A stretch of 64,000 nucleotides of DNA from Nitrospirota bacterium (lineage in GTDB: Bacteria > Nitrospirota > Nitrospiria > Nitrospirales > Nitrospiraceae), in NCBI GenBank assembly GCA_016219645.1, contig JACRLR010000052.1, positions 1-64,000 of the forward strand, in the 5' to 3' direction. This document shows positions 4,545 through 51,110 of the stretch, in pieces. A model generated the notes under the pieces. It saw only the letters and a program-made list of their open reading frames with translations. It had not been told where the DNA came from and made no database searches. Positions within the stretch are counted from its first letter, which is position 1. Every line of letters begins with the position of its first letter. The translations under genes and the position numbers were made by a program.

Positions 4545-4579
4545 CACAGGGCACTCGATAGCCTGCAGCTGATGCGAAG

Positions 4580-4684
4580 CCAGTCTGTCTGGTCTGTCTG
4601 GTCTGTCTGGTTCGTTTGGTTTCTTTCGTTCTTCGAGCCGAACCAACTAAACAAACGAGATAGACCGGACAGACAAGACAGACC
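4580..4684. repeat. Family D nonamer-repeat hairpin, copy 1
   Basis: The left arm is built of 9-bp units (GGTCTGTCT, then GGTTCGTTT). The right arm carries the complementary units (AACCAACTA, AGACAGACC) after a short centre near 4633. It lies between two convergent genes, so it could act as a bidirectional terminator here. Confidence 0.8.
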
Positions 4685-4693
4685 GGCAACCTG

Positions 4694-6100
4694 CTATCGC
4701 TCTCTCAGACTTTCCTGTACCGACTTCAGCAACGGACTCAGCAGATATTCAATGACGCGCCGTTTACCGGTTTTGATTTCCACTGTCACCGCCATCCCTG
4801 GGGAGAGAGGCACCTGCTTGCCCTCCACCTGGATTGTCGCCCGGTCCATGCTCACTCGCGTTGGATAGACCAAGCCGACTTTTTCGATCGGGGCCGCATC
4901 GTCTGAAATGCTCAGGACCTTGCCTGGTATGGTCCCATAGAGGGTGAAGGTAAACGTTTCCACTTTCACCTCCACCACCTGCCCTGCCTTCACGAATCCG
5001 ACATCTTTATTGTCGACCTGCGCTTCGACTTCGACCGGATGATCCTGCGGGACCACGATGAGCAGCGCCTGCGCCGGCGTGACGACGCCGCCCACTGTAT
5101 GGACAGCCACTTGCTGCACGACCCCATCAATCGGGGCTGCCAGCCGCTGAAAGTCCGCCTTCTGTCCAGCCTTCGTCACCTCCTGCGCCAGCGACGCCAC
5201 CTTGGTCTCCGTCGTCGAGAGCTCCATCTGTTTGGATTGCTGGAACTCGGACACAAGGACCTGATAGTTTTTTTGGGTTTCCGCGAGCGCGGATTGATCT
5301 TGCAGGAGCTTCTTGCGCTGCCCCGCCAATTCCTGCGTTTTGTCGATCCGCTGCTCCTCAGCTTGCAAAAAATCCATCCTCGACGCCGCCTGCTGGTCGA
5401 GGAGTTTTTTGTAGGTCTCTACCCGCTCAGTCTCTATAGGAACCGTCGCTTCCAACCGGCGAATATTCTCACGCGTCTGCGCAATCCCCGCCTTGCGCTG
5501 GTCAATCAGGTGTTGTGCCGAGGCAGCCCGGGCCTGGTATTCGGCCAGCTGATCTCTCAAGACCTGTCGTTGCAAGTTCACGTACTCAGGATTTCCATCG
5601 GTAGGAGATTCGAAGCCGGAGCTACCGGCAATGAGCGCACGGAGCCGCGCCGCGTCAACCTTCGCCGCCCGATATTCGTTGGCAACCCGATCGCGATCGG
5701 CCCGGTTCAACGTTGGATCCAGCTCGATCAGCACGTCTCCGCGCTTAACCGATTGTCCATTCTGCACATGAATCGCCGCGATCACCCCCGCCTCATAGGG
5801 CTGAATGACCTTTGAATAGCCGCTCGGAATGATCTTGCCCTGCGCCGTGGCGACAATATCGATCCGCCCGAATGTCGCCCACAACACTCCAGCGGTGAAG
5901 ACCGCCAGGATGGTCCAGAGGATTGCACGCCCGATGGGCGAGGGCGGCGCCTGCTGAATTTCCAGCACAGCAGGCAGGAACTCCGGGGCGGACGAGGGGG
6001 TCAGGCACCCTGCACCCAAGGTGCCTGACCCCCTTTCCGCCTCGGCCTGCCACGCTGCCTTCCATACCATCCAATGCCGCGCGAATGTGCCGAATGCCAT
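4694..6100 (-). CDS. HlyD-family type I secretion membrane-fusion (adaptor) protein, 468 aa
   Basis: This is the periplasmic adaptor that bridges the inner-membrane ABC exporter to an outer-membrane TolC-type channel. One transmembrane helix lies at about residues 58-77. It is followed by a barrel-sandwich strand (GKIIPSGYSKVIQPYEAGVI; GQSVKRGDVLIELDP), a long coiled-coil hairpin (about 130-330), the second half of the sandwich (RLAAPIDGVVQQVAVHTVGG) and a beta-barrel ending in a MAVTVEIKTGKR motif, as in HlyD. It is third in the order RTX protein, exporter, adaptor. Residues 23-35 are encoded by a family A palindrome, so the cytoplasmic tail has absorbed a mobile repeat. The TolC partner is not in this window. 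Confidence 0.93.
   Translation of the reverse strand: MAFGTFARHWMVWKAAWQAEAERGSGTLGAGCLTPSSAPEFLPAVLEIQQAPPSPIGRAILWTILAVFTAGVLWATFGRIDIVATAQGKIIPSGYSKVIQPYEAGVIAAIHVQNGQSVKRGDVLIELDPTLNRADRDRVANEYRAAKVDAARLRALIAGSSGFESPTDGNPEYVNLQRQVLRDQLAEYQARAASAQHLIDQRKAGIAQTRENIRRLEATVPIETERVETYKKLLDQQAASRMDFLQAEEQRIDKTQELAGQRKKLLQDQSALAETQKNYQVLVSEFQQSKQMELSTTETKVASLAQEVTKAGQKADFQRLAAPIDGVVQQVAVHTVGGVVTPAQALLIVVPQDHPVEVEAQVDNKDVGFVKAGQVVEVKVETFTFTLYGTIPGKVLSISDDAAPIEKVGLVYPTRVSMDRATIQVEGKQVPLSPGMAVTVEIKTGKRRVIEYLLSPLLKSVQESLRER
5996..6033. repeat. Family A REP-like palindrome inside the hlyD-type gene
   Basis: A perfect 14-bp inverted repeat (GGGGGTCAGGCACC, ten-base loop, complement) lies within the coding sequence and is read in frame as part of the cytoplasmic tail. 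The same core recurs at 8372, 22578 and 22833. Palindromes of this kind are usually mobilised by REP-associated tyrosine transposases (RAYT); none is encoded in the window. Confidence 0.85.
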
Positions 6101-6123
6101 ACCCCTTCCTCTGCCTCTCTACT

Positions 6124-6171
6124 CCTAACCCTTCACCCCTCACTCCTTACGCTTCACGTTTCACGCTTCAC
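6124..6171. repeat. Family B intercistronic repeat, copy 1 (exporter/adaptor)
   Basis: On the minus strand this reads as units of GTGAAGCGTGAAACGTGA followed by GTAAGGAGTGAGGGG. It spans the end of the exporter gene and the gap before the adaptor. The exporter's last residues (VKRET) and its TGA stop are made from the repeat itself. Confidence 0.7.
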
Positions 6172-8352
6172 TGCCGCATAGCCATCCTGATGGGACTGCA
6201 AGCGCGCATAAAACCCCTTCACGCGCAGCAACTCTTCGTGAGAACCCTGCTCGACAATTTCGCCCTTTTCCACCACGTAAATCCGATGCGCCGGCCGAAC
6301 TGTGGTGAGTCGGTGGGCGATGATAAATACGGTCCGCCCCCTGCTGATCTGTGCCATGTTTTGCTGGATGATCGCCTCGGATTCATAGTCCAGCGCGCTT
6401 GTCGCTTCATCGAAGATCAGAATACGCGGATTTGCGACCAACGCTCGGGCAATCGCGATCCGCTGCCGTTGCCCGCCGGACAGCGAGCAGCCATGCTCGC
6501 CCACCAGGGTATCATAGCCTTCAGGTAACTCGAGGATGAATTCGTGCGCGCCAGCCAGCTTGGCCGCCTGGATCACCTGCTCCATCGCCAGACCTGGATC
6601 GGTCAGCGCAATGTTGTCGCGCACGGAGCTGTTGAAGAGAAAGTTTTCCTGAAGCACCACGCCCACCTGCCGGCGAAGCCAGGCCGGGTCCACCTGCGCA
6701 AGGTCCACCCCGTCCACCAGAATACGTCCCCGCTCCGGCACATAGAGCCGTTGAATCAACTTAGCGATGGTACTTTTGCCGGAGCCTGACCGACCGACAA
6801 GCCCGATCACCTGGCCTGGCGACACAGCGAACGATACTTTGCGGAGCGCTTCCGAACTACTGGGCCGATAACGAAAAGTCACGTCCTCGAACACAATCTG
6901 TCCGTTGACTTGGGGAAGCATGGTCCTGGTTGGACTGTAGGTAGGCTCCGGCTGCGTATTGAGGATATCCCCCAACCGCTGCACAGAGATGCCGACTTGT
7001 TGAAACTCCTGCCAGAGATTCACGAGGCGCAGCAACGGACCCGTCACTTGAGCCGAAAGCATCGTAAAGGCAATCAGTTGCCCGATCGTCAGATCCCCAT
7101 TGATCACTCGATAGGCCCCCAGCCAGAGTACGGAAACGGTAGTGACCTTCTGAATGAATGTCGCGGTCTGGCCGGCCACGTTCATCAGATTGGCGGCGCG
7201 AAAGCTTGCCTTCACATACCCCGCCAGCTGTTCCTCCCATTTCCGTAACAAGGGCGGCTCCACCGCCAGAGCTTTTACCGTCTGAATTCCACTGACCGCC
7301 TCCACCAAAAACGACTGGTTCTCCGCGCCACGATTGAACTTTTCATTCAGCCTGGCTCGGATCGCCGGTGTGATAACCACAGATAACAGAGCGTAGAGCG
7401 GCAACGAGCCCATCACGACCAGCGTGAGGATGGGGCTGTAGAACCACATGACGGCGAGAAAGACGACGGTAAAGAACAGGTCGAGCACCACCGTCACGGA
7501 ATGGCTCGTCAAGAATTGGCGGATATGCTCCAGTTCACGAACCCGAGCCACCGTGTCGCCCACCCGGCGCGCCTCGAAGTAGGCCAACGGGAGCGCCAGG
7601 ACATGGCGGAACAACTGCGCACCGAGCCCGACATCGATCCGGTTCGTCGTATGAGAGAAGAGATAGGTCCGCAGCCCACCCAAGACCGCATCGAAGAGCG
7701 CCAGGGCGATCATGCCGACCGCCAACACATAGAGCGTGGTGAACCCCTTATGGACCAGCACCTTGTCGATGACGACTTGGGTGAACAGCGGTGTCAGGAG
7801 CGCAAAGAGCTGCAAGAAGAACGACGCGACCAGCACCTCGCCCAAAAACTTTCGGTACTTGACGAGTGCTGGGATAAACCAGGTGAAGTCGAACTTGAGG
7901 TCTTGCAAACGTAGATTCGCCCTCTTGGTAAAGAGCAGCAACTCTCCCGTCCAAGCCGATTCGAACTGTTCGCGAGAGAGCACGAGCGGGCGAGCTTCCA
8001 CCGGATCCTGGACCAGCGCCTTGTCACCTTCGATTTTCGCCAAGACGACATAGCGCCCATCAGTGCGCTTGGCGATCGCCGGAAAGGGCGTCCCAGGCAG
8101 CTTGGCCCACCGGCTCTTCAGCACACCGGCTTTGAGACCGATGTGTTTGGCAGCGCGGAGAAGTTCGGTGTCTGAGATCAGCTGGTTGGATTGCGCAAAC
8201 TGATGGCGCAGCTGCGAGCCGTCCGCCGGCAGGTCGTAGAACCGGGCCAGGATCAACAGGCAGATCAGGCCCGTATCCGTAACTCCCGCGGCAGCAGATG
8301 GCGGTGCTGAATCAGAAGGAGAAGGAGGAAGCCTCGCTATGTCGGCCTGCAT
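6154..8352 (-). CDS. HlyB-family type I secretion ABC transporter/permease, 732 aa
   Basis: This is the inner-membrane exporter that recognises and drives the RTX protein out of the cell. The N-terminal 150 residues form a peptidase C39-like domain. Its catalytic Cys is replaced (TDTG where peptidases have DCG) and the His position reads Tyr (RYVVL), so it binds but does not cleave its substrate, as in HlyB. A six-helix membrane domain spans about 160-440. The ATPase domain is complete: Walker A GRSGSGKST (520-528), signature LSGGQ (624-628), Walker B ILIFDE (644-649) and the switch His680. It lies directly downstream of its presumed substrate gene and 53 bases before the adaptor gene. The C-terminal tail derives from a family B repeat. 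Confidence 0.95.
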   Translation of the reverse strand: MQADIARLPPSPSDSAPPSAAAGVTDTGLICLLILARFYDLPADGSQLRHQFAQSNQLISDTELLRAAKHIGLKAGVLKSRWAKLPGTPFPAIAKRTDGRYVVLAKIEGDKALVQDPVEARPLVLSREQFESAWTGELLLFTKRANLRLQDLKFDFTWFIPALVKYRKFLGEVLVASFFLQLFALLTPLFTQVVIDKVLVHKGFTTLYVLAVGMIALALFDAVLGGLRTYLFSHTTNRIDVGLGAQLFRHVLALPLAYFEARRVGDTVARVRELEHIRQFLTSHSVTVVLDLFFTVVFLAVMWFYSPILTLVVMGSLPLYALLSVVITPAIRARLNEKFNRGAENQSFLVEAVSGIQTVKALAVEPPLLRKWEEQLAGYVKASFRAANLMNVAGQTATFIQKVTTVSVLWLGAYRVINGDLTIGQLIAFTMLSAQVTGPLLRLVNLWQEFQQVGISVQRLGDILNTQPEPTYSPTRTMLPQVNGQIVFEDVTFRYRPSSSEALRKVSFAVSPGQVIGLVGRSGSGKSTIAKLIQRLYVPERGRILVDGVDLAQVDPAWLRRQVGVVLQENFLFNSSVRDNIALTDPGLAMEQVIQAAKLAGAHEFILELPEGYDTLVGEHGCSLSGGQRQRIAIARALVANPRILIFDEATSALDYESEAIIQQNMAQISRGRTVFIIAHRLTTVRPAHRIYVVEKGEIVEQGSHEELLRVKGFYARLQSHQDGYAAVKRET

Positions 8353-8371
8353 CGCATTATCTCAGTGCACG

Positions 8372-8436
8372 TGGGGTCAGGCACCATTTGCGCGAAGCGC
8401 CCTGCGGGTCGTTCCGACAAATGGTGCCTGACCCCA
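8372..8436. repeat. Family A REP-like palindrome, copy 2
   Basis: The arms TGGGGTCAGGCACCATTTG and its exact complement (8418-8436) form a 19-bp perfect stem around a 27-base centre that itself contains CGCGAAGCGC. It sits in the gap between the RTX gene and the exporter, about 20 bases upstream of the exporter start. It could tune exporter expression relative to the much larger substrate. Confidence 0.85.
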
Positions 8437-8595
8437 TCCTCCCCTCCCGCATACTCGATAGCAGCAAATTCGCGATTGACTCGCAGGCTCTCCTTGCGGA
8501 CCTTCTTTGAGGTTTCAGCGAGCCGCGTCGCCCTCTTCATGTGTCGTGTGACCTTCGTTTGCTTCACGCCCTTCCTCTCACGCCTGACGTTTCGC

Positions 8596-8640
8596 ATCTT
8601 CCGTTTCACACCTAACCCCTCACCCCTGACGCCTTACGAT
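8596..8640. repeat. Family B intercistronic repeat, copy 2 (RTX gene/exporter)
   Basis: On the minus strand, starting about ten bases after the RTX stop codon, the sequence reads GTAAGGCGTCAGGGGTGAGG and continues with GTTAGGTGTGAAACGG. The remaining part of the gap (8437-8595) contains only a weak basic reading frame, described under rejected observations. Confidence 0.65.
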
Positions 8641-8648
8641 CTTCCAAA

Positions 8649-11600
8649 TTACTGCCAGCTCCCTGCCAGTACCGTCTGCACATCTTGCGGCTGTTGATCG
8701 ATGGCTTGATCCCACGTGAGGCCCGATTGCGCAGAGAAGGCCGCCATCGCCTGAATCAACTGATCGACCTGCGTACTGAGCAAGGTCTGCCCATTGCCGG
8801 CTTGAATGGTCTCGGTCCGATTCGTCGTGCCGACGTACCAGTTCTGCACCGTTACAACATCTGTCGAGTCGTGGATCGCCAGTCGCAGATTGTTCGCCTG
8901 CCGGCTGATGACCAGATCCAGCGGATTGATGCCGGTATCATAGAGCAGCTTGTCGGCTGTCCCACTGTTGTCCTGGACCAGATCCTGTCCGTCGCCTCGG
9001 CCAAACAGGAACGTATCGTTCCCGCTGCCGCCGTTGACTGTATCGTTGCCCAACCCGCCACGGAGCTGATCGTCTCCTCCGGCGCCGCTCAGCACATTGT
9101 TGGCGCTGTTGCCGGTGATCGTATTGTTCAGACTGTTGCCGGTGCCGTTGACGGCGCCGAGACCGGCCAACGTCAGATGCTCCACGTTCGCACCCAAGGA
9201 ATGAGTGAGCAGGCTTTGGACCGTATCGATACCTCCATTGGCCACTTCGACCACTGCGTCGCCGGCTCCAATAATATAGGTGTCATTGCCGGCTCCCCCG
9301 GTCAGGGTATTACCGCCCAAGTTGAGGAGGCCGTTCAGCACATTATCCAATACGTTACCCGTGGCACTTGCGCTACTCAACCCCAGGAGGGTCAGATTCT
9401 CCACGTTAGCGCCGAGGCTGTGCGTGACGGTACTGATCACCGCGTCTGTGCCTTCCCCAGCCCCTTCCACCACCGTGTCGCTGCTCCCAACGACATAGGT
9501 ATCATTGCCGGCTCCGCCCGTCAGGACATTCGCCGCGCTGTTACCGGTGAGCACATTATCCTGATCATTTCCGGTGCCGTTAATGGCAGCTGACCCCGTC
9601 AACACAAGATTCTCGACATTCGGACTGAGGGTGTAGCTGACCGAACTGGTGACCGAATCGAGCGTCCCCTCGCCGGTTTGTTCGATCACCGTATCGCCGG
9701 GATTGTCCACCAGATACAGATCGTCCCCCGCCCCACCACTCATCTGATCGGCCCCGGCCTTGCCGTCGAGCAGGTTGGCCCCGCTGTTACCCGTCAGCAC
9801 ATTGGATAACGCATTGCCGATGCCCGCGCTCGGCCCGGTCCCCGTCAGAGTCAGGTTCTCGAGATTGGCGCCCAGCGTATAGAGCAGCAGATTAGTCTGC
9901 ACCGTATCTGTGCCTTCGTTGGCCAATTCGGTCACGCCATCGCCGGTCGCATCGACAACGTAGGTATCGTCGCCGCTGCCACCGGTCATCGTATCGGTCC
10001 CGGTGCCGCCGTCGAGCAGGTCGTTTCTGGCTCCACCGGTCAGGGTATCGCTGCCGGCCAGTCCGAACAGTTGATCGTTGCCGACCCCGCCCGCAAGCAC
10101 ATCGTTGCCAGCAGTCCCGGTCAGGACCTGATCCTGACTGCTCACCGTCAGGGCAAAGACATCCGACGCGCTGAGCGCGCCGGTGTCGGTCGCGGTGACA
10201 CGCACGTCGATGGTGCCGGCGTCACCGGTGCCCGGCGTCCCGCTGAACGTGCGCGTCGTGGCGTCAAAACTCAGCCAGGATGGAAGTGCGCTCCCATCGG
10301 CCAGTACGGCGTTGTACGTCAGTACGTCACCGGCATCGACGTCCGCAAACGTCTCAGCCGCCATGACGAACTGAAACGCCGTCCCGGAGGTCGCCTGCTG
10401 ATCGGCAACCGGAACCGCGACCGTCGGCGCCTCGTTCACATTGGTCACGGTCAGGGTGAACTGATCTGACACGGCAAGATTGCCGGTATCCGTGGCCGTC
10501 ACACGCACATCGAGATTGCCCACCTGCGCATCGTCCGGGGTCCCGCTGAACGTGCGCGTGGCGGCATCGAACGTCAGCCATGCCGGCAGCGCGGTGCCGT
10601 TCGCCAAGGTTGCACTATAAGTCAGCACATCGCCCGCATCTTGATCGGCGAAGGCATTGGCCGGGACGACAATACTGAACGGCGCGACTTCTGGGACCGT
10701 TTGATCCGCGAGCGCGTTCGCCACCGTCGGGGCATGATTGACTGGACCGCCCAGCAGTGCCGCCAAACTCGCCGTACTCCCATCGGCAAAGGCTAGGGTC
10801 TCGACGACCAGCGAGCCGTTCGCCCCGGTCGGATCGAAGTTCGTGAGCACGAGCTGGTCAGTTCCGCTACTGCCGACCTGAATGGTCAGGGTACGGGCAG
10901 CTTGGTCCTGGGTGAAGGTCAGATCACTTTGGGCAATGCCTACCCCGAACTGAATCCGGTTGCCTTCGCTGATCACCGCGACATCCTCGATCGTATCGAT
11001 GCCGTCGCCGATCTTGAAGAGATAGGTGTCGTGACCAGCGCCACCACGCAGCACATCGTCGCCGGATCGAATCACTTGAGAGTCCCTGTTGATTCCGCTG
11101 CCACCCCAGAGCGTGTCGTCCCCATTCATTCCACTCAGCACATTGTCTTCACTGTTGCCAATGAGCACATTGTTCAACTCATTCCCCGTTCCGACAACAG
11201 GCCCAGGCAGATAAAACACCGGGTTTTCTTGAAGAGTGAGGTTCTCCACATGCTCTCCTAACACATAGTTCACTGTGCTCTGCACCGTATCTGTGCCTTC
11301 CCCAGCAAACTCCGCCACGGTTTGTTGTTGGCTATGGAGTATGTAGGTGTCGTTGCCACTGCCTCCGATGAAGAGATCGTCGGCTCGCCGCGGGACATTC
11401 TCACGGAATTCCGAGCCACCACCTAAGAACAGCCACTGTCCTTCAACGCCGCCCACGGCGAAGACGACGTTTCCTCCATCCGCCATGAGCACATCATCGC
11501 CCGCCCCGCCGATCAAGATGTCGCTGCCGGTCCGAAAGACGAAAAACTCTTCCGCGGATCGAAAGACTCCACCCACCAACACATCGTTCCCGTCACCTCC

Positions 11601-14600
11601 ATCGAGAATGTTATTTCTGGTATTCCCAACGATGAGATTGTCCAACTCATTGCCGGTTCCATGCACAGGACTTGGGATCACAGAGCTGGCGCTCTGAGCG
11701 AGAATCAAATTTTCGACGTGGGCGCCCAACGAATAATCCACCAAGCTTTCGACGGTATCGATCCCCTCCCCAGCCGCTTCGACGACCGACTCACTCGCAG
11801 AATCCACAAGATAGGTATCGTCGCCTGCAAGCCCTCTGAAAATGTCGCCGGGGAAACCGCTTATCACATCATTCAGGATCGTACCCGTGGCAAAACTCAA
11901 GTTGGACGGCGACCATGCAAGATTCCACTGAGTCCCGTCTGTGAATCGGACGACAGCCTGAGTCGTTTCGAGCCCCACCGATGGGTAATTCGTCGAAAGG
12001 GACAACGTCAACTTGTCTCCGGTACTGAACACATAAAGGTCGATCAATTGATAATCCGGATAGTGGCGGCTGATCACGACATCGGCAGGAGAGAGATCTG
12101 CGGCAATTTGAATGACGTCGATATCACTGCCATTATTGTCAAGGGTGACAAAATCGGTGCCTGATCCACGGCCAAATAACACCGTGTCCTGGCCGGCGCC
12201 GAGCAACAGCGAGTCGTTTCCTGCCCCACCGTCGAACACATTGGTCCCTTGAAAATCTCGCAATACGTCATTTCCAGATCCACCGGTCAACTGATCGTTT
12301 CCGATCACAGGCGGGACAAACGGCGATTGGGAAATGGCGTCGCCGTAGATGACATCATCTCCGAGCCCGCCCGCTAACGTATCGTTGCCCGCGTTACCCA
12401 CCAACGTGTCATTTCCCACCCCACCGATAAGGTTGTCATTGCCTGTGCTTCCGTTGGTCGTGCCTCCCGCGACTACTGCCCGCGCGCGCAATTCGGCCGC
12501 ATCCCACAGCGTGCCATCGACGAAGCGAACTTGTTTGAAGCCCCATTCCGACGGACCATAAAAGTTGGCCAAGGCCAGCTCGTCTGTCGTCCCAGCAATG
12601 TTCAACACCAAATCTTCCCCACGGTGGAACACGGCGAGATCGCTTGGTGTCAAACCGGTCTTAATCTGCACGGTGTCCACTGCGCCCGTTTGAGTCGTGT
12701 CGGCCACGACATCCTGACCGGAGCCTAGACCAAATACGAAGGTGTCAGCCCCTTCTTCGCCATTGAGAATGTCGTTCCCTACTCCACCATCCAACACATT
12801 TGCCGCCGCGTTCCCGAGTAGGGTGTTGTTCATGCCATTGCCGGTTCCATCAATGGTTCCAGTCCCAACCAGCGTGAGACTTTCCACGTTGGCTGATAAG
12901 ACATGACTCGTCGAAGACTGGACCGTATCGATGCCTTCGTTGGCCCGCTCAACCACGATGTCACCGACGTCGTCTACGACGTATGTGTCATCGCCGGCCC
13001 CACCAATCAATGTATCGGCGCCCAGACCACCATCTAGAGCATTATTCGCTCGCCCGCCGGCGAGCGTATTATCCAGATCGTTCCCATATCCGCTCACAAA
13101 TATCCCTGGCGACCCATAAGGAATGAGCGAGAAGGTCTCAAAGTCGGGCACTCGAGGATCGAGCACTGTGAGATTTTCAATATGACCCGGCAACCGATAG
13201 TCGTGCGCAGCGATCACGGTATCGATCCCCCCGGTGGCCGTTTCAACGAGCATGTCGTCGTCGCCATTCGGCCCGATCAGATAGGTGTCGTTGCCATCGC
13301 CGCCGGCCAAGATGCTGACTGATCCCTCCGCTTGCAGGACATTGTCCAAGGCATTTCCTGTTCCGGTCAGCGCGGCACTGCCGGTCAGCGTCAGGTTTTC
13401 AAGATTGGCGCCCAGCGTCGCGTTGCTGCCGGTCTGAATCGTGTCAGTACCCTCTCCGGCCAACTCTACAATCGCATCTCCCGCGCCGACCACATAGGTG
13501 TCGTTGCCTGCTCCGCCGGTCAGCACGTTGACGGCGCTGTTCCCTGTCAGAACGTTATCGAGGGAGTTGCCCGTGCCATTGATAAGCCCGCCGCCAGTCA
13601 AAGTGAGATGCTCCACATTCGCTGACAGCTGATAGCTGACTGCTGACTGCACAAGATCCGTACCTTCGTTGACAAGTTCGGTTACAACGTCGCCCGCGTC
13701 ATCGACCACATAGGTGTCGTTCCCTGGGCCGCCCGCGAGTTGATCGGCTCCGGTTCCACCATCAAGCACATCGTTGCCTGCCAAACCACTGAGCTGATCG
13801 TTCCCCGCCAGCCCCAACAACTGGTCAGCAGCGCCTGTTCCGACCAGCACGTCATTCCCGCCGGTTCCATTGATCGTGGGTCTCGTGAGATTCTCAATGA
13901 AGGCGTGGTCCCAGACCGTGCCATCGGCGAAGATCACCTGTTCGATTTGCAACGGACTGGCCAAGAAATAGAACGACACGGTGAGCCGATCCGTCCCACC
14001 ATTCAGGCTCAAGACGAGGTCGTTGTTATTCCGTGTGACCACCACATCCGAGGGGGCCACACCGGCCGCCATGCTGATCCTGTCCAAGCTTCCCTGAAAC
14101 TCGACAATCGTATCCTGACCGGACCCTGGACCGAACAGATAGGAGTCGTTGCCCTGACCGCCACTCAGCTGGTCATTCCCGGTTCCACCATCGAGGGTAT
14201 CGTCGCCTAACCCACTCTGCAACACATCGGCGCCATCACCGGAAATAATCCGATCGACCACGTTCGTTCCCTCTATCTGGTCGTCGCCGGCGGTGCCGGT
14301 AAGGTCAAACCCTCGCGCGAGCAGTTGCTCGTAGGTCAGCACGCTGCCGTCATCGAAACGAAACGTCTCGACGGTGCGAAGATCCAACACAACGTCGCGA
14401 TCGAACGTATCGAGCTGCACGGCGTCGCCGTTTACGCCGACACGGATCAACAAGTCACTGATCTCAGCGTCTGACTGATCGGAAGCCAGATCGAGACGAA
14501 GATCGGACGACACAATGCCTGGGCCGAAGATGATGTCATTGTCAGCTCCTGGCGCAACGGCATCTACAATCGTATCGACACCGTCTCCGATGTTGAAGAC

Positions 14601-17600
14601 ATAGGAATCGTTCCCCTCGCCGCCCTCCATGCGGTCGTTGCCGAGTCCGCCGCGGAACCGGTCGATCACATTGGTGCCGAAGAGCACATCGTCGAAGTCG
14701 GTGCCGTCGATATCGAACCCGCGCGCGACCAGGTCGGCATACGTCAAGCTCGTACCATCTTCAAACTGAAAGAGATCGACCGCATGGAATCCCAGTGCAT
14801 CACTGCCATTGGCACCGATTGTCACACCTTCGAATGCCGTGTCGGGGCGCACGAGCACCTGACCAAAGTTGGTCGTCAATGTCACGGACGACGAGGTGAT
14901 GCCAGGACCGAACAGCACGCGATTGGGTTCCCCCACATCAATTGAATCACTGATACTGTCGAGCCCGTCACCGAAATTGAAGCGATAGGTATCATCCCCC
15001 GTGCCACCCAACAGCTGATCGTCACCGGCTCCACCGACCAGCACGTCATCCCCCGTCTCCCCTTCAAGACTGTCGTTCCCAGCCTCGCCGTTCAACACAT
15101 CGTTGCCGTCACCCCCGCGCATGAAGTCATCACCAGTCCCACCCAAAAGCTGATCAATCCCGCCTTCCCCAAACAAGACGTCATGGCCGCTCCCGCCATT
15201 AAGCACATTGTCGATCGCTCCACCTGACAGAACGTCGTTGCCATCGAGACCATAGATCTCTCGGTAGATCTCGCCTCCGTTCAAACTATCGTTACCGGCT
15301 GTCCCCACCAGATCGTATCCCCGCGCGACGAGGTCCGCTTGAGTCAGCGTGGTCCCATCGGCAAACTCAAATGTCTCGATCCCGACCGGCACCGTGGGAT
15401 GCGCCGGATCGAACCCTTGAATAATAATCGCATCCCCGGTGAACCCTACGCGCAAGACAAGCGAGCCGATGCCGACGCTGATATCGTCAGCAAGAATCCC
15501 CGCGCCAAACACCAACTTGTTAGCTTCTCCCGCCGTATCGACGATCGTTTCGACCCCATCGCCCAGGTTGAACACATAGGTATCGCTACCGGCCCCGCCA
15601 TCCAAACTATCCACACCGGCGCCGCCGGTCAGTACGTCATCTCCCGCGCCGCCCTGCAGATTATCGTTGCTATCGCCGCCAAAGAGAAAATCCGCGTCCG
15701 CCCCCCCAATCAGCACATCGTTCCCGTCCTCGCCCGCCAGGAGATCGGCGCCCACGCCCCCCTCGAGCTGATCGTTCCCCTCCCCGCCGAACAAGGTGTC
15801 GTCGCCCGCGTCCCCGACCAGCAAGTCAGCACCGGCCTCGCCATCCAAATTGTCGGAGCCCGCATCGCCGAACAACCGGTCGTCCTCCGTTCCGCCAATC
15901 AACACATCGTTGCCATCCCCACCCTGGAGTTCATCCGCGCCTTGTCCCCCGTCTAACACATCTTCTCCAGCCTCGCCGAAGAGGAGATCCGCCTCGGTCC
16001 CGCCAAAGAGATGATCATTCCCGCCACTCCCTTGCAGTTCATCCATGCCGGCCCCGCCATCGAGAATATCGTCTACTCCGGGATCAGTTGAGAAATCACC
16101 CACCAGGAGATCGTCTCCTCCTCCACCAAGCAGGGTGTCCGCACCAGCCCCTCCGTAAAGTTCATCGTGATCAGCACCCCCATCAAGCCAGTCGTCACCC
16201 GGTTCGGACCCGTAGCCAAACCCGTCTCCCCACAGTCGATCATTGCCCAGTCCACCGATCAAAATATCGTCATAGCCCCCGCCGTGCAGCACATCGTTCC
16301 CGTCCCCGCCATCCAGATAATCTTGCCCATCCACGAGCGGATCCCACTCGGGAGGGGTACTAGGATTTTCTGGCAGCGAAATCTCATTGTCCCCGTTCAA
16401 GAGATCATCGCCAGTCCCGCCCAGCACAATGTCATTCCCAGCCCCCCCGGTCAGGCCGTCATTGCCGGCCCCTCCGTCAAGGTAATCATTGCCCGTTTGG
16501 CGATCCAGCCGGCCAGACACCACGACCCCTTCGCCAGAAATAGTATCATCGCCCGCACCGCCGAGCAGCACATCATTCCCCTGACCCCCAGCAATGAAAT
16601 CGGCCCCCAATCCTCCATCGACATAGTCGTTGTCACTCCCGCTCTGGAGCGGATTAAACGGATTATTCGCAATGATGGCATCGTTGCCTGTTCCACCAAA
16701 AATCTGGTCGTTGCCGGTTCCACCTTGCAGTTCATCGTCGCCGTCCCCGCCATCGAGCAGATCGTCGCCCAACCAGCCCCGAAGCACATCCAGATCGCCT
16801 TCTCCATAGAGGCGGTCTCGTCCGGCGCCCCCATCAACCGTGTCATTTCCCAGTCCCCCAAAGACCTGATGGTTGTAGAACTCGGGATAGGTAATGAAGC
16901 TGATTTGATCAAACCCACCCCGTCCGTAGGCGATGTGGTTGGCCCCCACCTCGAATAGAGGCGTATTGTTGCTGTCGTCGCCCTCCCACGTGATCGTCGG
17001 CTGGCCATTGGTAAAGTCGATCGTGGGCAGGGCTGGTTGCGTCGTGTCGGGGGCGGTCGTGAGCCGGATCCCCACATCTCCGGCGGCAAAGTCAAACGCT
17101 TCGATCGTCACCGTGCCATTGATACTCAGATCGGCCCCTTGCTTCACATAGGTGATGGCACCATCGGCGCTATGCCACGTATCCTGTGGGTCAGTGGTTG
17201 TGCGGAGCCCGCCACTAAGCAGCCTGGCATTGAACGTCACGGCGCCGATTCCATCCGAGTCCATGATTGTCTCGTTGCCGTCGCCCGTGTTCCAGACATA
17301 GGTGTCGAACCCTGCGCCCCCTTCGAGGCGATCATCGCCCGTGCCGCCAACCAGAATGTCGGTGCCACCGTTGCCGATCAGATGATCCGTGCCGCCCCGG
17401 CCCTCTAACCGATTCACGCCGCTGTTGCCGGTGAGGTCGTTATTGAGATCGTTTCCGATGCCCTTAATGTTGTTGGTCCCCGTGAGTGTCAGGTGTTCGA
17501 GATTGTCCCCCGGTGAGAATGTGAAGGTCACGGAGCTTTGGACCGTATCGATGCCATTGTTCAAACCTTCGATGACCTGATCGCCGACATTGTCCACATT

Positions 17601-19103
17601 ATACGTGTCATCGCCCGATCCCCCGATCATGGTGTCGGCGCCTGCGCCACCATCCAGTGTGTCAGCCCCAGCATTGCCCACCAGCAGATCGGCCCGAGTG
17701 CCGCCGGTGAGGGTATCGGCGCCAGCACCGCCCAGCATGAACGCGCTTCGGTTATCGATGACGGTGGCATTCATGCCACTCGTTCCCGCCTGCACATACC
17801 AGTCGCGCATTGACGGCAGCAGCAATTCCATCAGCTGGCTCTCAGTGCCAGAAAACGCATCTGTGTTGAGGTAGTCCTGAAAATACAGGCTGTAACCCTT
17901 GGCGCCAGTAATTGGATTACCTGCACCGACGACCGCCTCCGTGTCGAAGTGAATGCCGTTGCTGCCGAGCCCCGCAGTAGTCAAATCAGTGAAGAGTTCG
18001 GTGGGCGTGGCACCGGCGGCGAGGTGCTCGTCGTAATACTTCTGCATGTCGAAGGCGATCAAGGTGTTGCTGACGTTGTTCAGATTATTACCGAAGAAGC
18101 TAGTGCCCTCGCTCATAGTCAGCCCGCCGTCCTGCGCGAGTTTCCACAGGTCAGAGGTGAAGCGGGTCACCATCGCATCGGCAGCAAATAAGCCTTGCAC
18201 ACCTACTTGATGACGGACGAGATGGTCGAGGAAATTCCTCTGATTCGTGTCTGTGTCATTTGCAAACAAGTTTTTATCAAACAGCATCTTCAGCAAGTCA
18301 GTGAATTCGCCCGTCACCTCGTTCAGCCTCTCGCCTATCACAGCAGTCTCATTGCTTTGCAGGAACGCGGTGAGCAGGGACTGCGCATGCAGGTCGTCGC
18401 CCGAAACGCCAGACGCGCTGTTGTTGATATCGAAAAGAGTGGTGCCGATGCGGTCGGGGATGTTATAGGGTACACCGGACAGAAGTTCACCTTGCACATT
18501 GATGTTGGTCACCAAGTTGGAATTGGGAATGTCGCCATTGGCTTCACGCAGTTGTAAAAAATTGGTCAGGCCGGAGAGTTCAACTTCGGTGTGGCCATTG
18601 GCCAGAAGGTCCACTTTGAGATTGGCTGCGATATCCGGAGTGAGCACATTCAGTTTTGCTGACCTGGCAAACGGGGCTTGATCGAACGTCACCGCCTGTT
18701 GACCGAAGAACACGCCCATCAGAGCGGCCAGCCCCCCGCCTAAACTGTGCCCAGTGAAGGTGATGCTCGTCGCATTGGGATTGTCGGCCTTCACCTGTAG
18801 ATAGTATTCGGCCGCTTGCAAGAGTTGAGCTGATCCAACGCCTGTTGCGAGTCCAATGTCAGCGAAAATATCTCCCGCGATGTCTTTCGCGTAGGTGCCG
18901 GCATAGGAGATGACAATGTCGGTACCTTTTCGGAAGGCAACGGCTTCAAAGCCAGCTGCACCTGTAATCTGAGGAAAGGCTGGATTGTTTGGAACATGTG
19001 CGAGCTCAGCCCATCCCTGCGGAGTTGGAAATTGGTTTGTCAGTCCACGGGTGATTTGATACGCCCGTCCTGCCATCAATGCATATTCAACTGTGGTGGC
19101 CAT
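8649..19103 (-). CDS. Giant type I-secreted RTX protein with N-terminal lipase domain, 3484 aa
   Basis: AAGGAG lies just upstream of the ATG. Residues 1 to about 450 form a class 3 lipase/alpha-beta hydrolase: ISYAGTYAKD is the oxyanion loop region and GHSLGGG (118-124) carries the nucleophile Ser120. From about 455 onward the chain is calcium-binding RTX nonapeptides (GGxGxDxLx), interspersed with two longer modules. One is a ~70-residue unit (DTYVVDxxGD ... VENLTLTG ... GTGN.LDNVLTGN), about 11 copies. The other is a haemolysin-type calcium-binding-related unit (YVFNxGDGxDTI ... FADGT), about 9 copies. Two cadherin-like/He_PIG domains sit at about 2785-2990. The last ~75 residues, RTX-free and ending in GSWQ, are the expected uncleaved secretion signal. 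The exporter and adaptor genes follow. A calcium-folded, extracellular or surface lipase/adhesin is the likely product. Confidence 0.93.
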   Translation of the reverse strand: MATTVEYALMAGRAYQITRGLTNQFPTPQGWAELAHVPNNPAFPQITGAAGFEAVAFRKGTDIVISYAGTYAKDIAGDIFADIGLATGVGSAQLLQAAEYYLQVKADNPNATSITFTGHSLGGGLAALMGVFFGQQAVTFDQAPFARSAKLNVLTPDIAANLKVDLLANGHTEVELSGLTNFLQLREANGDIPNSNLVTNINVQGELLSGVPYNIPDRIGTTLFDINNSASGVSGDDLHAQSLLTAFLQSNETAVIGERLNEVTGEFTDLLKMLFDKNLFANDTDTNQRNFLDHLVRHQVGVQGLFAADAMVTRFTSDLWKLAQDGGLTMSEGTSFFGNNLNNVSNTLIAFDMQKYYDEHLAAGATPTELFTDLTTAGLGSNGIHFDTEAVVGAGNPITGAKGYSLYFQDYLNTDAFSGTESQLMELLLPSMRDWYVQAGTSGMNATVIDNRSAFMLGGAGADTLTGGTRADLLVGNAGADTLDGGAGADTMIGGSGDDTYNVDNVGDQVIEGLNNGIDTVQSSVTFTFSPGDNLEHLTLTGTNNIKGIGNDLNNDLTGNSGVNRLEGRGGTDHLIGNGGTDILVGGTGDDRLEGGAGFDTYVWNTGDGNETIMDSDGIGAVTFNARLLSGGLRTTTDPQDTWHSADGAITYVKQGADLSINGTVTIEAFDFAAGDVGIRLTTAPDTTQPALPTIDFTNGQPTITWEGDDSNNTPLFEVGANHIAYGRGGFDQISFITYPEFYNHQVFGGLGNDTVDGGAGRDRLYGEGDLDVLRGWLGDDLLDGGDGDDELQGGTGNDQIFGGTGNDAIIANNPFNPLQSGSDNDYVDGGLGADFIAGGQGNDVLLGGAGDDTISGEGVVVSGRLDRQTGNDYLDGGAGNDGLTGGAGNDIVLGGTGDDLLNGDNEISLPENPSTPPEWDPLVDGQDYLDGGDGNDVLHGGGYDDILIGGLGNDRLWGDGFGYGSEPGDDWLDGGADHDELYGGAGADTLLGGGGDDLLVGDFSTDPGVDDILDGGAGMDELQGSGGNDHLFGGTEADLLFGEAGEDVLDGGQGADELQGGDGNDVLIGGTEDDRLFGDAGSDNLDGEAGADLLVGDAGDDTLFGGEGNDQLEGGVGADLLAGEDGNDVLIGGADADFLFGGDSNDNLQGGAGDDVLTGGAGVDSLDGGAGSDTYVFNLGDGVETIVDTAGEANKLVFGAGILADDISVGIGSLVLRVGFTGDAIIIQGFDPAHPTVPVGIETFEFADGTTLTQADLVARGYDLVGTAGNDSLNGGEIYREIYGLDGNDVLSGGAIDNVLNGGSGHDVLFGEGGIDQLLGGTGDDFMRGGDGNDVLNGEAGNDSLEGETGDDVLVGGAGDDQLLGGTGDDTYRFNFGDGLDSISDSIDVGEPNRVLFGPGITSSSVTLTTNFGQVLVRPDTAFEGVTIGANGSDALGFHAVDLFQFEDGTSLTYADLVARGFDIDGTDFDDVLFGTNVIDRFRGGLGNDRMEGGEGNDSYVFNIGDGVDTIVDAVAPGADNDIIFGPGIVSSDLRLDLASDQSDAEISDLLIRVGVNGDAVQLDTFDRDVVLDLRTVETFRFDDGSVLTYEQLLARGFDLTGTAGDDQIEGTNVVDRIISGDGADVLQSGLGDDTLDGGTGNDQLSGGQGNDSYLFGPGSGQDTIVEFQGSLDRISMAAGVAPSDVVVTRNNNDLVLSLNGGTDRLTVSFYFLASPLQIEQVIFADGTVWDHAFIENLTRPTINGTGGNDVLVGTGAADQLLGLAGNDQLSGLAGNDVLDGGTGADQLAGGPGNDTYVVDDAGDVVTELVNEGTDLVQSAVSYQLSANVEHLTLTGGGLINGTGNSLDNVLTGNSAVNVLTGGAGNDTYVVGAGDAIVELAGEGTDTIQTGSNATLGANLENLTLTGSAALTGTGNALDNVLQAEGSVSILAGGDGNDTYLIGPNGDDDMLVETATGGIDTVIAAHDYRLPGHIENLTVLDPRVPDFETFSLIPYGSPGIFVSGYGNDLDNTLAGGRANNALDGGLGADTLIGGAGDDTYVVDDVGDIVVERANEGIDTVQSSTSHVLSANVESLTLVGTGTIDGTGNGMNNTLLGNAAANVLDGGVGNDILNGEEGADTFVFGLGSGQDVVADTTQTGAVDTVQIKTGLTPSDLAVFHRGEDLVLNIAGTTDELALANFYGPSEWGFKQVRFVDGTLWDAAELRARAVVAGGTTNGSTGNDNLIGGVGNDTLVGNAGNDTLAGGLGDDVIYGDAISQSPFVPPVIGNDQLTGGSGNDVLRDFQGTNVFDGGAGNDSLLLGAGQDTVLFGRGSGTDFVTLDNNGSDIDVIQIAADLSPADVVISRHYPDYQLIDLYVFSTGDKLTLSLSTNYPSVGLETTQAVVRFTDGTQWNLAWSPSNLSFATGTILNDVISGFPGDIFRGLAGDDTYLVDSASESVVEAAGEGIDTVESLVDYSLGAHVENLILAQSASSVIPSPVHGTGNELDNLIVGNTRNNILDGGDGNDVLVGGVFRSAEEFFVFRTGSDILIGGAGDDVLMADGGNVVFAVGGVEGQWLFLGGGSEFRENVPRRADDLFIGGSGNDTYILHSQQQTVAEFAGEGTDTVQSTVNYVLGEHVENLTLQENPVFYLPGPVVGTGNELNNVLIGNSEDNVLSGMNGDDTLWGGSGINRDSQVIRSGDDVLRGGAGHDTYLFKIGDGIDTIEDVAVISEGNRIQFGVGIAQSDLTFTQDQAARTLTIQVGSSGTDQLVLTNFDPTGANGSLVVETLAFADGSTASLAALLGGPVNHAPTVANALADQTVPEVAPFSIVVPANAFADQDAGDVLTYSATLANGTALPAWLTFDAATRTFSGTPDDAQVGNLDVRVTATDTGNLAVSDQFTLTVTNVNEAPTVAVPVADQQATSGTAFQFVMAAETFADVDAGDVLTYNAVLADGSALPSWLSFDATTRTFSGTPGTGDAGTIDVRVTATDTGALSASDVFALTVSSQDQVLTGTAGNDVLAGGVGNDQLFGLAGSDTLTGGARNDLLDGGTGTDTMTGGSGDDTYVVDATGDGVTELANEGTDTVQTNLLLYTLGANLENLTLTGTGPSAGIGNALSNVLTGNSGANLLDGKAGADQMSGGAGDDLYLVDNPGDTVIEQTGEGTLDSVTSSVSYTLSPNVENLVLTGSAAINGTGNDQDNVLTGNSAANVLTGGAGNDTYVVGSSDTVVEGAGEGTDAVISTVTHSLGANVENLTLLGLSSASATGNVLDNVLNGLLNLGGNTLTGGAGNDTYIIGAGDAVVEVANGGIDTVQSLLTHSLGANVEHLTLAGLGAVNGTGNSLNNTITGNSANNVLSGAGGDDQLRGGLGNDTVNGGSGNDTFLFGRGDGQDLVQDNSGTADKLLYDTGINPLDLVISRQANNLRLAIHDSTDVVTVQNWYVGTTNRTETIQAGNGQTLLSTQVDQLIQAMAAFSAQSGLTWDQAIDQQPQDVQTVLAGSWQ

Positions 19104-31084: not shown

Positions 31085-31150
31085 GGTTCATTTGGTTAGT
31101 TTGGTTCATTTGGTTAGTTTGGTTCAACGAAACAAACCAGATAAACAACA
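31085..31150. repeat. Family D nonamer-repeat hairpin, copy 2
   Basis: Four 9-bp units alternate between GGTTCATTT and GGTTAGTTT, followed by a short complementary arm GAAACAAACCAGATAAAC. It lies just upstream of guaB and downstream of the NHL-repeat gene (both minus strand), where it could end one transcript or shape the guaB leader. Confidence 0.75.
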
Positions 31151-37500: not shown

Positions 37501-38559
37501 TTATCGTGACCTTATCACATAGACAGCTAATAGGGCGATGGCGGCCAGAAGCGTGAAGCCGACCGCGTAGGGGACCATCCGATTTTCGCTCTCTTGCGCC
37601 GCCTGTACGGTTGCTGGTTTGGCTGCTCCTGTAAACTGTGGTTTCTGGTTGAAATGGGCTTTCGAAAAGTCGTCCCGTCCCTTGAATGACGCATCAGAAA
37701 AATCCGCCGTCGATTGGAATCTGGCGCCGGGAAAGTACGTGTCTCCGTCGAAAAGGGTAAAGGTAAAAAACGCTTCGCGTTCGAAGGTCACCTCGGAGAA
37801 ATCCGCCCTCCCTTGAAACCGGCTTCCGGAAAACCCGGTTCCCAGGGTGAAATAGCTGTGTGACAGATCGGCATCCTTCTCGAAAGTCACTTCCAAAAAT
37901 TCCGCCAGCCCGTTGAACCTCGATTGCCGGAAGGTGACCGGCCCTTGAAAGACCGATCGATGAAATCTCGTATGCGGACCGAACATCGTGCCCTCAGCGT
38001 ACAAGCCGCGCAGAAACCGCCCTTGCACAAAATAGGACTCCCGCAAGAACTGTGCGCCTGACAGAGTCACTGGCTGAAGGAATACAGATCGTGAGAGATC
38101 TACCACCTGCTCAAACCTGGTCCCGTTAAACGACACAGGACCCTGTATCACCAGCAACCCTGTTGTTGATCCGTACCTGATCGTTCCTCGTACCACCGAA
38201 TTGACAATCTTCATGGAGCCGGAAATCAGACGTACCTCGAAACCTTGCAGGTCCTTCGCCCCCTCAAGCTCAGGCGGCAGCCTGCCTACAGGCAACGTAT
38301 CCAAAGATAGATTGCCGCGAATGACGACCCCTGCAAGATCAATCCCCTTCCCTTCTCTGAACGCCTGCAGTACCTGTGTGGCATCCACCGCTCGCGCTTC
38401 TCGCTCTTGTTCCGTGCAATCGACGCTCAGATGCCGCACCAACCCCACCCCCGGCCCTGGATCAGATGTCTCCACCTGACAGGTCGATCCGCCGGCGCCG
38501 GACGGCAGCCAAAGAATAAGCCCTCCGATCATGATCCATACACAGACTCTCTTCATCAT
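37501..38559 (-). CDS. Exported pentapeptide-repeat protein with C-terminal membrane anchor, 352 aa
   Basis: ATG 38559 begins a signal peptide (VCVWIMIGGLILWLP); the frame is open from 38610. From about residue 130 there is a run of degenerate pentapeptide repeats of the A(D/N)F-type in ten-residue pairs (FSGSRFQGRADFSEVTFER, then FPGARFQSTADFSDASFKGR). These should build a right-handed quadrilateral beta-helix. A final transmembrane helix (AVGFTLLAAIALLAVYVI) anchors it, with the fold facing the periplasm. Phe rather than Leu dominates the central position. The function of such exported pentapeptide proteins is unknown. Confidence 0.8.
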   Translation of the reverse strand: MMKRVCVWIMIGGLILWLPSGAGGSTCQVETSDPGPGVGLVRHLSVDCTEQEREARAVDATQVLQAFREGKGIDLAGVVIRGNLSLDTLPVGRLPPELEGAKDLQGFEVRLISGSMKIVNSVVRGTIRYGSTTGLLVIQGPVSFNGTRFEQVVDLSRSVFLQPVTLSGAQFLRESYFVQGRFLRGLYAEGTMFGPHTRFHRSVFQGPVTFRQSRFNGLAEFLEVTFEKDADLSHSYFTLGTGFSGSRFQGRADFSEVTFEREAFFTFTLFDGDTYFPGARFQSTADFSDASFKGRDDFSKAHFNQKPQFTGAAKPATVQAAQESENRMVPYAVGFTLLAAIALLAVYVIRSR

Positions 38560-38667
38560 GTAGGCCCTTATACGGAATACCCTGGCCCAACGCAAGGCAA
38601 GGACCGGCAATTGACTGTACTACCGACCAGGATTTGCTAACCTTTTTAAACGCACGTATCAGCAAAT

Positions 38668-38799
38668 TGGTTCATCGGTTTGGTTGGTTTATTTAGTTTA
38701 TTTGGTTGGTCTGATTCATTTGACTTGTTTCGTTCCTCTGATCGGAACCAACCGGACGAACAAACCAAACCAAATTAACCAAATAAACCAGATCAACCA
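38668..38799. repeat. Family D nonamer-repeat hairpin, copy 3
   Basis: At about 130 bp this is the longest copy. The left arm has GGTTGGTTT and ATTTAGTTT type 9-mers; the right arm has AACAAACCAAACCAAATTAACC. It lies between the divergent pentapeptide and Lon-like genes and ends only nine bases before the ribosome-binding site of the latter. Confidence 0.8.
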
Positions 38800-38819
38800 T
38801 CCTGCTCGGAGGTTTCGTG

Positions 38820-39464
38820 ATGCCACGTCACTTTGCCGCAACCTACATATTAATTGCGGCCCTCCTCTGTGGAATTCCAGCCTCGGTTTCAGCGGACAAC
38901 GTCATCGAACTCCCGGTCCTGGCAGCCATTCGCCAAAACAATCTTGGCGTGTTTGAAATCCTTATGATCTGGTGGGACAAGAAAGCGGAACCGAATCCCG
39001 TTCAATTGCAATGGCTCTTCGGCGGCGTACGACTGGGAAATACTCATTTAGGAGCCATGGCCCAAGCCTTTGCCTACGCCGTCGAACGGACCCCCTCAAT
39101 CCAGCACAGCGGGACCGTATCAGTGCAAGGGGTGGCCTATCAGCCGGCAGGCAGCGACGGGCCAAGCGCCGGCGCAGCCATGGCCGTGGGCTTCATCGCT
39201 ATGTTCAAAGGAGAGCACATTCAGCGGGGCATCGCGTTGACCGGAACTTTTGAACCGGGTGGGCACATCGGCCCCGTGGGCGGCATCCCAGATAAGATTC
39301 GCGCCGCCGCGCGGGAAGGGTATCGAACCATATTAGTTCCACGCGGACAGATTCACGACCCGCGATGGAACTTGAACGAACTGAGCTTTCAACTCAATGT
39401 GACGGTAAAGGAAGTCGACACAATCGATGAGGCGTATCAACTGATGACGGGCCAAAAGATATAA
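38820..39464 (+). CDS. Exported stand-alone Lon-type (S16) serine protease domain, 214 aa
   Basis: GGAGG lies seven bases before the ATG. A signal peptide (ILIAALLCGIPASVSA) is followed by only the proteolytic domain of Lon: DGPSAGAAMAVGFIA with nucleophile Ser116 and VGGIPDKIRAAAREG with general-base Lys159. This is the classic Ser-Lys dyad with the expected spacing of about 43. There is no AAA+ ATPase and no substrate-binding N-domain, so it cannot unfold proteins with ATP and would act in the periplasm on unstructured or specific targets. Known ATP-independent relatives are cytoplasmic or membrane-bound, making the exported form notable. Confidence 0.85.
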   Translation: MPRHFAATYILIAALLCGIPASVSADNVIELPVLAAIRQNNLGVFEILMIWWDKKAEPNPVQLQWLFGGVRLGNTHLGAMAQAFAYAVERTPSIQHSGTVSVQGVAYQPAGSDGPSAGAAMAVGFIAMFKGEHIQRGIALTGTFEPGGHIGPVGGIPDKIRAAAREGYRTILVPRGQIHDPRWNLNELSFQLNVTVKEVDTIDEAYQLMTGQKI

Positions 39465-39478
39465 CAAAAATGTTCATC

Positions 39479-39548
39479 CGGTTTGTTTGGTTTATTTCGT
39501 TTATTCGTTTAGGGTTGTTCAACCAAACAAACTAAACAAACCAAATAA
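39479..39548. repeat. Family D nonamer-repeat hairpin, copy 4
   Basis: The left arm uses GGTTTGTTT, GGTTTATTT units and the right arm AAACAAACT, AAACAAACC. It starts 14 bases after the stop of the Lon-like gene and is followed by a convergent gene end, a position compatible with a bidirectional terminator. Confidence 0.8.
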
Positions 39549-39586: not shown

Positions 39587-40042
39587 CTATTTCAACTCTC
39601 CTGTGGCTCCACTTAAAATCCCGTCGTACTCCGCCTGCGTCAACCGATGCATGCCCAATCTCAAGCGTCGGGCGAGTTCGGCCTGATCGGCTATTTGGAG
39701 CACATTGAGCAACAATGCCTGACTGGCTGCAGACGAGTAGGCTATGCGACGCACCCCCTTGATTCGCACGAATCCAAATCTGGCCTCCGTTCTGAGATCG
39801 TCTCTGAGGAATGCATCCAGCGCCGGAAAGTCCAGCGCAGGCGGCACCATCTGAAACTCGGCATAGATTCCGACCTTCAGCACATACACAAGACCTCGGG
39901 ATTCAGCATCAAGATATGTCTGAAGATTTGTCCGTATCAGCTCAGTGCAGAGTCCCCAAAGGCCATGCCCGAGTTGCAGCTCTGCGCTTTCCTCCGAGGT
40001 GCGTTCGCGCAAAGCCCCGGCCACAAACAAAAAATGACTCAT
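39587..40042 (-). CDS. Hypothetical protein, 151 aa
   Basis: A soluble, mixed alpha/beta protein that opens with a hydrophobic strand (HFLFVAGALRER), followed by helices (GLCTELIRTNLQTYLDAE) and a strand pair (GLVYVLKVGIYAEFQMV). The C-terminal helices are LLLNVLQIADQAELARRLRLG and RLTQAEYDGIL. No family was recognised. The ATG lacks a clear ribosome-binding site. It converges on the Lon-like protease gene. Confidence 0.55.
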   Translation of the reverse strand: MSHFLFVAGALRERTSEESAELQLGHGLWGLCTELIRTNLQTYLDAESRGLVYVLKVGIYAEFQMVPPALDFPALDAFLRDDLRTEARFGFVRIKGVRRIAYSSAASQALLLNVLQIADQAELARRLRLGMHRLTQAEYDGILSGATGELK

Positions 40043-51017: not shown

Positions 51018-51110
51018 CTGGTTCATCTGGTTTGTTTAGTTAATTTGGTTGTTTGGTTCGTCTGGTTAATTTCATTCAACCAAACAAACCAAATAACCAG
51101 ATCAACCAGT
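51018..51110. repeat. Family D nonamer-repeat hairpin, copy 6
   Basis: The left arm has GGTTCATCT, GGTTTGTTT, AGTTAATTT units; the right arm has AACCAAACAAACC and AATAACCAGATCAACC. It lies between divergent recG and TPR/peptidase genes, about 75 bases from the latter's start. Confidence 0.8.

Follow-up and report, generated by a model that had tools for sequence, protein, structure and literature searches.

A 64,000-nucleotide stretch of contig C52 of a 3.65 Mb Nitrospirota genome (hereafter the window) carries a gene for a stand-alone S16 (Lon-type) protease, here named LonX, whose product is predicted to be exported. Lon is the textbook ATP-dependent protease. LonX is quite probably a soluble periplasmic Ser/Lys endopeptidase, exported through Sec, that consists of the S16 domain alone and works without ATP, perhaps with the product of a divergent pentapeptide-repeat gene as its client. 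The domain content, fold and catalytic dyad of LonX, their conservation, the expansion of the family within one bacterial order and the local gene order were established by computation.

The lonX gene and its predicted signal peptide

The lonX gene lies on the forward strand (38820..39464) and encodes 214 amino acids and a stop codon. The reading frame runs from an ATG at 38820 to a stop codon at 39462-39464, where an earlier note on this DNA had placed it. A Shine-Dalgarno-like GGAGG (38808..38812, forward strand) precedes the ATG by 7 nt, an assignment based on the sequence and on ortholog starts, and of the 20 ortholog starts compared, most have GGAG/GGGAG-like bases at a similar position. 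Immediately upstream of the ATG is an in-frame GTG (38817); either codon may start LonX, since one ortholog (L010) keeps the GTG but has ATA where the ATG would be. A promoter scan found no sigma-70-like site and was uninformative. Pairwise comparison of 20 ortholog genes (Nei-Gojobori, 190 pairs) gave a median dN/dS of 0.110 (0.029-0.174), and judged by these substitution rates lonX is a real gene under purifying selection.

The first 25 residues (38820..38894, forward strand) form a predicted Sec signal peptide with cleavage after VSA, an assignment based on composition and conservation. In this N-terminus (MPRHFAATYILIAALLCGIPASVSA-D) a basic n-region is followed by a hydrophobic core and a V-S-A end. 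Its best 10-residue Kyte-Doolittle mean is 3.06; the same measure spans 2.24-3.29 in six other proteins that look exported and 0.33-1.69 in all 13 window proteins taken as cytoplasmic, a class assigned by gene name. Orthologs and most paralog subfamilies keep a hydrophobic N-terminus while its sequence drifts; in orthologs and several paralogs the segment directly precedes the S16 domain, and most orthologs have V-S-A or a similar small-residue end at the border with the domain. Across the 190 ortholog pairs mean pN is 0.210 in the signal part and 0.057 in the mature part, with equal pS (0.440 and 0.448), a contrast indicating that the reading frame is not due to chance; at the level of sequence it is what a signal peptide preceding a constrained domain usually shows. 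From composition and family-wide conservation we infer that LonX is exported through Sec by a signal peptide of about residues 1-25, which supports the signal peptide and export proposed in the earlier note. LonX as a lipoprotein was considered and rejected, as several orthologs have W or S instead of the cysteine of its LLCG motif, and that cysteine is preceded by L.

Not every relative is built in this way. The hydrophobic segment is wholly absent from L014, and the longer paralogs L027, L066, L068, L069 and L029 have none right before the domain. Two of these longer S16 relatives, L066 (966-1961) and L027 (1483-2448), have a signal-like hydrophobic stretch at the far N-terminus instead, followed by a weak DUF4124-like match (E 0.09 in L027 and 0.00031 in L066, both under the cut-off).

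A complete S16 domain with a conserved Ser/Lys dyad

Lon_C (PF05362) is the sole Pfam family above its cut-off in LonX, matching residues 112-204 (E 8.8e-14, 52 bits against a cut-off of 21.1 bits). The best sequence match in the PDB is the E. coli Lon proteolytic domain (6.6e-10), and a profile built from 50 LonX relatives (A1) matches Lon domains over its positions 70-206 (1z0w, 8.5e-22). An AlphaFold2 model computed from the A1 alignment has a mean pLDDT of 86.3 and a pTM of 0.82, with residues 18-25 below 50. The top-ranking structures in a Foldseek search with this model are E. coli Lon proteolytic domains (3wu6, E 1.8e-15), and VIA-align superposes residues 27-214 of the model on E. coli Lon 1rr9 with Z 25.3 and an rmsd of 2.0 A over 175 residues. 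Mature LonX (38895..39461, forward strand) is thus one complete S16 proteolytic domain, and because the structural match covers residues 27-214, the stretch missed by Pfam is the first half of the S16 fold and no separate domain.

In the profile alignment to E. coli K-12 Lon, S116, K159, T141 and D113 of LonX fall on S679, K722, T704 and D676. By this alignment and by conservation, Ser116 (AGC, 39165..39167) is the catalytic nucleophile and Lys159 (AAG, 39294..39296) the general base; position 141 (codon 39240..39242; all three codons are on the forward strand) is Thr or Ser in every one of the 55 rows spanning it. Of 57 distinct short-frame relatives, 55 have both residues of the dyad, the other two being fragments that do not reach the sites, and in a larger set they are kept in 71/71 distinct stand-alone relatives covering both positions, alongside two fragments. 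The invariant columns of A1 include S116 and K159. Pfam yields no ATPase (AAA) match in LonX, whose domain begins at about residue 27 of 214, and no PDZ match at E<=1; the S16 fold leaves no space for a PDZ domain outside it. An S16 core with Ser116 and Lys159 intact and the absence of any ATPase, both read earlier from the sequence, are therefore borne out, the former by Pfam, fold, alignment to S679/K722 and family-wide conservation, the latter by Pfam, the 214-residue frame and the complete S16 fold.

Lon domains that lack an ATPase and Lon domains that are exported are already known, also in combination. The prokaryotic serine proteases surveyed in a 2008 study included 39 single-domain Lon_C proteins and one PDZ-Lon_C protein, B. 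subtilis NP_389388.1 (PMC2605481), and a Frankia secretome table includes a 'Peptidase S16 lon domain protein' (PMC2266912). YlbL of Bacillus subtilis combines a transmembrane segment, a Lon domain with S234/K279 and a PDZ domain, and is probably extracellular (PMC6051672). It resembles LonX, for which export is predicted, in having an S16 domain with a Ser/Lys dyad, no AAA+ ATPase and a probably extracytoplasmic location (PMC6051672), but LonX lacks its transmembrane segment and PDZ domain and consists of a short signal sequence plus the protease domain alone. Streptococcus mutans SepM is likewise an S16 protease and is described as cutting the signal peptide CSP-21, a case of limited proteolysis. 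SepM is exported. Its PDZ region is absent from LonX, which scores 32.5 bits over 86 residues against NCBIfam NF041438 (SepM), below the cut-off of 200. LonC (MtaLonC; TTC1975 peptidase) also has an S16 domain and degrades unfolded substrates without ATP (PMC3391209), but it has about 720 residues, with a large N-terminal AAA-like region, absent from LonX, fused to the protease domain, and it is not known to be exported; the A1 profile matches it more weakly (4fwd, 5e-10) than LonA/LonB domains. With LonA and LonB (E. coli Lon 1rr9; A. fulgidus LonB-type 1z0w) LonX shares the whole proteolytic fold and the dyad; it differs from them in lacking the AAA+ module, the N domain and the membrane segments of LonB, and in its predicted export. 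What sets LonX apart as a new variant is the bare S16 domain, free of PDZ, and its occurrence in an order of bacteria where several paralogous lines exist. In a literature search that missed most subscription journals, no paper on an exported Lon-type protease of Nitrospira was found, nor any experiment on a member of the LonX family.

Distribution and gene neighbourhood

The A1 profile was run over 295 genomes of the phylum, counting by eye those with a best E<=1e-30. Hits at this level occur in 10 of 11 genomes of the genus, 64 of 68 from the rest of the family and 16 of 19 from the rest of the order, that is, in 90 of 98 Nitrospirales genomes. No genome among the 197 outside the order reached E<=1e-30 (best 3.3e-24), a comparison in which divergent outside members could score lower, the profile being derived from Nitrospirales sequences. 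In 15 hand-chosen genomes of these 197, 66 of the 68 Pfam Lon_C matches lie in frames of at least 454 residues, and the two short ones, one of them at a contig start, score like ordinary Lon fragments. On this sequence evidence LonX belongs to an expanded Nitrospirales group of S16 enzymes with predicted export. A contig scan with the single LonX sequence as query, which reaches close relatives only, named Nitrospira and Nitrospirae metagenome bins; a plasmid collection gave no match at E<=1e-3.

Subfamilies of the group fall to about 25% identity. In a tree of 40 reduced rows made with a quick method, the window subfamily, with the motif [S/T/N]DGPS[A/G]G, forms one supported group (SH-aLRT 99). 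Further groups are TEGxSxS with its [T/I/S][D/E]GxSxS relatives, YG[D/E]SLS, and IDGPSAG with a long N-terminal part. The deepest branches of this tree are unsure, and its long branches did not settle how the exported set relates to LonA or LonC. Six Lon_C matches occur in the genome of the window: LonX, a paralog in a 276-residue frame on contig C19, and four in frames of 466-846 residues. The paralog, a second S16 protein with predicted export (L053 3299-6212; G000:C19), is about 35% identical to LonX and in many genomes sits between a DsrE2-like gene and a Kef-type antiporter gene.

The divergent neighbour of lonX (37501..38610, reverse strand) encodes an exported pentapeptide-repeat protein with a C-terminal hydrophobic segment (Pfam Pentapeptide_3, E 3.1e-28); its likely start is an internal ATG near 38556. 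The downstream neighbour (39587..40042, reverse strand) has no assigned family and is usually, not always, found beside lonX. Of 39 loci, among which some genomes are represented twice, 35 have the pentapeptide gene next to lonX, and the four loci without it have fewer than 220 bases upstream of lonX. In other genera the two genes adjoin in 12/12 window-type loci among L076-L095. Among 56 genomes hand-picked deliberately with and without LonX (criterion, at least 50% identity), 19 have LonX, and in 19/19 of these the pentapeptide gene is directly divergent. It is present in 54 of the 56, so the pentapeptide protein does not need LonX. LonX can also be lost alone, since the pentapeptide gene occurs where LonX does not and one genome (G015) keeps beside it only a LonX fragment with a TAG. 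As lonX is broken or lost in a few genomes, some of these cases perhaps being assembly errors in metagenome bins, and several lineages are affected, LonX is dispensable. The pair lies inside a wider conserved block, scpB-scpA-pentapeptide-lonX-ORF39587, so the adjacency may be inherited order. The neighbours suggest a candidate partner only, and the pentapeptide-repeat protein as partner or client of LonX is a guess. In Nitrospira RSF6 (L049 ~4196-5585) the 5' ends of both genes are missing, as if a single deletion had taken the shared region; this could also be an assembly fault.

Other features of the window were noted. Clusters of a 9-nt unit (GGTTTATTT/GGTTTGTTT/GGTTCATTT) forming imperfect inverted repeats occur at 4609-4666, 31085-31147, 38677-38798, 39480-39542 and 51020-51107, two of them flanking lonX, and look like a REP-like hairpin family. 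The unit is matched 29 times in the window, where 1.2 matches are expected, and hundreds of times in the genome, where a reversed-pattern control is likewise high (854 against 744). A 3484-residue protein rich in GGxGxDxL-type repeats (4694-19103) lies beside presumed ABC and HlyD-like secretion genes and has the look of type I secretion.

Proposed activity and alternative readings

After removal of the signal peptide, the LonX domain would fold as it does in Lon. It would probably assemble into a ring, the analogy being with LonC and with Lon proteolytic domains in isolation. Lys159 would activate Ser116, and the enzyme would cut segments that are already unfolded or exposed, using no ATP and threading no substrate. 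The periplasm has no ATP supply, so an exported LonX would have to work without ATP-driven unfolding; this had been argued before, and it follows from general knowledge and agrees with what is seen in the ATPase-less Lon-type enzymes studied. We infer proteolytic activity, independence of ATP and cleavage of unfolded or exposed segments on these grounds. As to the client, a guess is that it may be the pentapeptide-repeat protein encoded next to lonX or another protein involved in that envelope process. The regulatory or quality-control role put forward in the earlier note would likewise be conjectural.

Several other readings were weighed against this one. In RadA and BrxL the Lon-like domain probably serves for binding or assembly, and LonX might by the same token be a non-proteolytic S16 fold that now serves as an exported module of that kind. 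The structural matches include BrxL chains (Z 20.8-21.2) and the sequence matches include RadA, which shows that the fold is reused outside proteolysis, but Ser and Lys are retained in 71/71 stand-alone rows, in subfamilies down to about 25% identity, and Thr or Ser at 141 in 55/55, which leaves this reading distinctly improbable. That LonX is a decaying Lon fragment or an unimportant ORF is scarcely credible: the gene is broken or lost in a few genomes (in part perhaps through bin assembly errors), but a dN/dS of 0.11 and the complete fold led us to reject a chance ORF or a decayed Lon, and with the presence of LonX across genera at a conserved place the idea is largely refuted by selection.

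Two further readings, both rather unlikely, keep the protease and alter its setting. The N-terminal segment might stay uncleaved, leaving LonX membrane-anchored and facing the periplasm, like a YlbL without PDZ; its hydrophobic core appears long enough to span the membrane, but most orthologs retain V-S-A or a similar small-residue end before the domain. Substrates might also be delivered by a separate envelope partner, with the pentapeptide-repeat protein in the role of adaptor, anchor or scaffold, in effect a split YlbL PDZ-Lon, a doubtful elaboration that refines the periplasmic endopeptidase proposed here and does not exclude it. LonX has no PDZ domain and the exported divergent gene adjoins it in 19/19 genomes, but many genomes that lack LonX retain the pentapeptide gene. 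A broader scenario, speculative and not likely to hold as a whole, is that Nitrospirales possess soluble periplasmic proteases of the Lon fold in several branches, acting as ATP-free rings, in which dedicated envelope partners (the pentapeptide protein for the window subfamily, the Kef-type antiporter locus for the second) replace PDZ recognition.

At 214 residues, LonX should be simple to express and its activity directly testable. A Lon proteolytic domain used alone outside the cytoplasm, even without the PDZ domain of YlbL, would reveal the minimal needs for finding substrates, and the LonX family adds uncharacterised predicted periplasmic proteases to the nitrite-oxidising bacteria, organisms that are genetically difficult.
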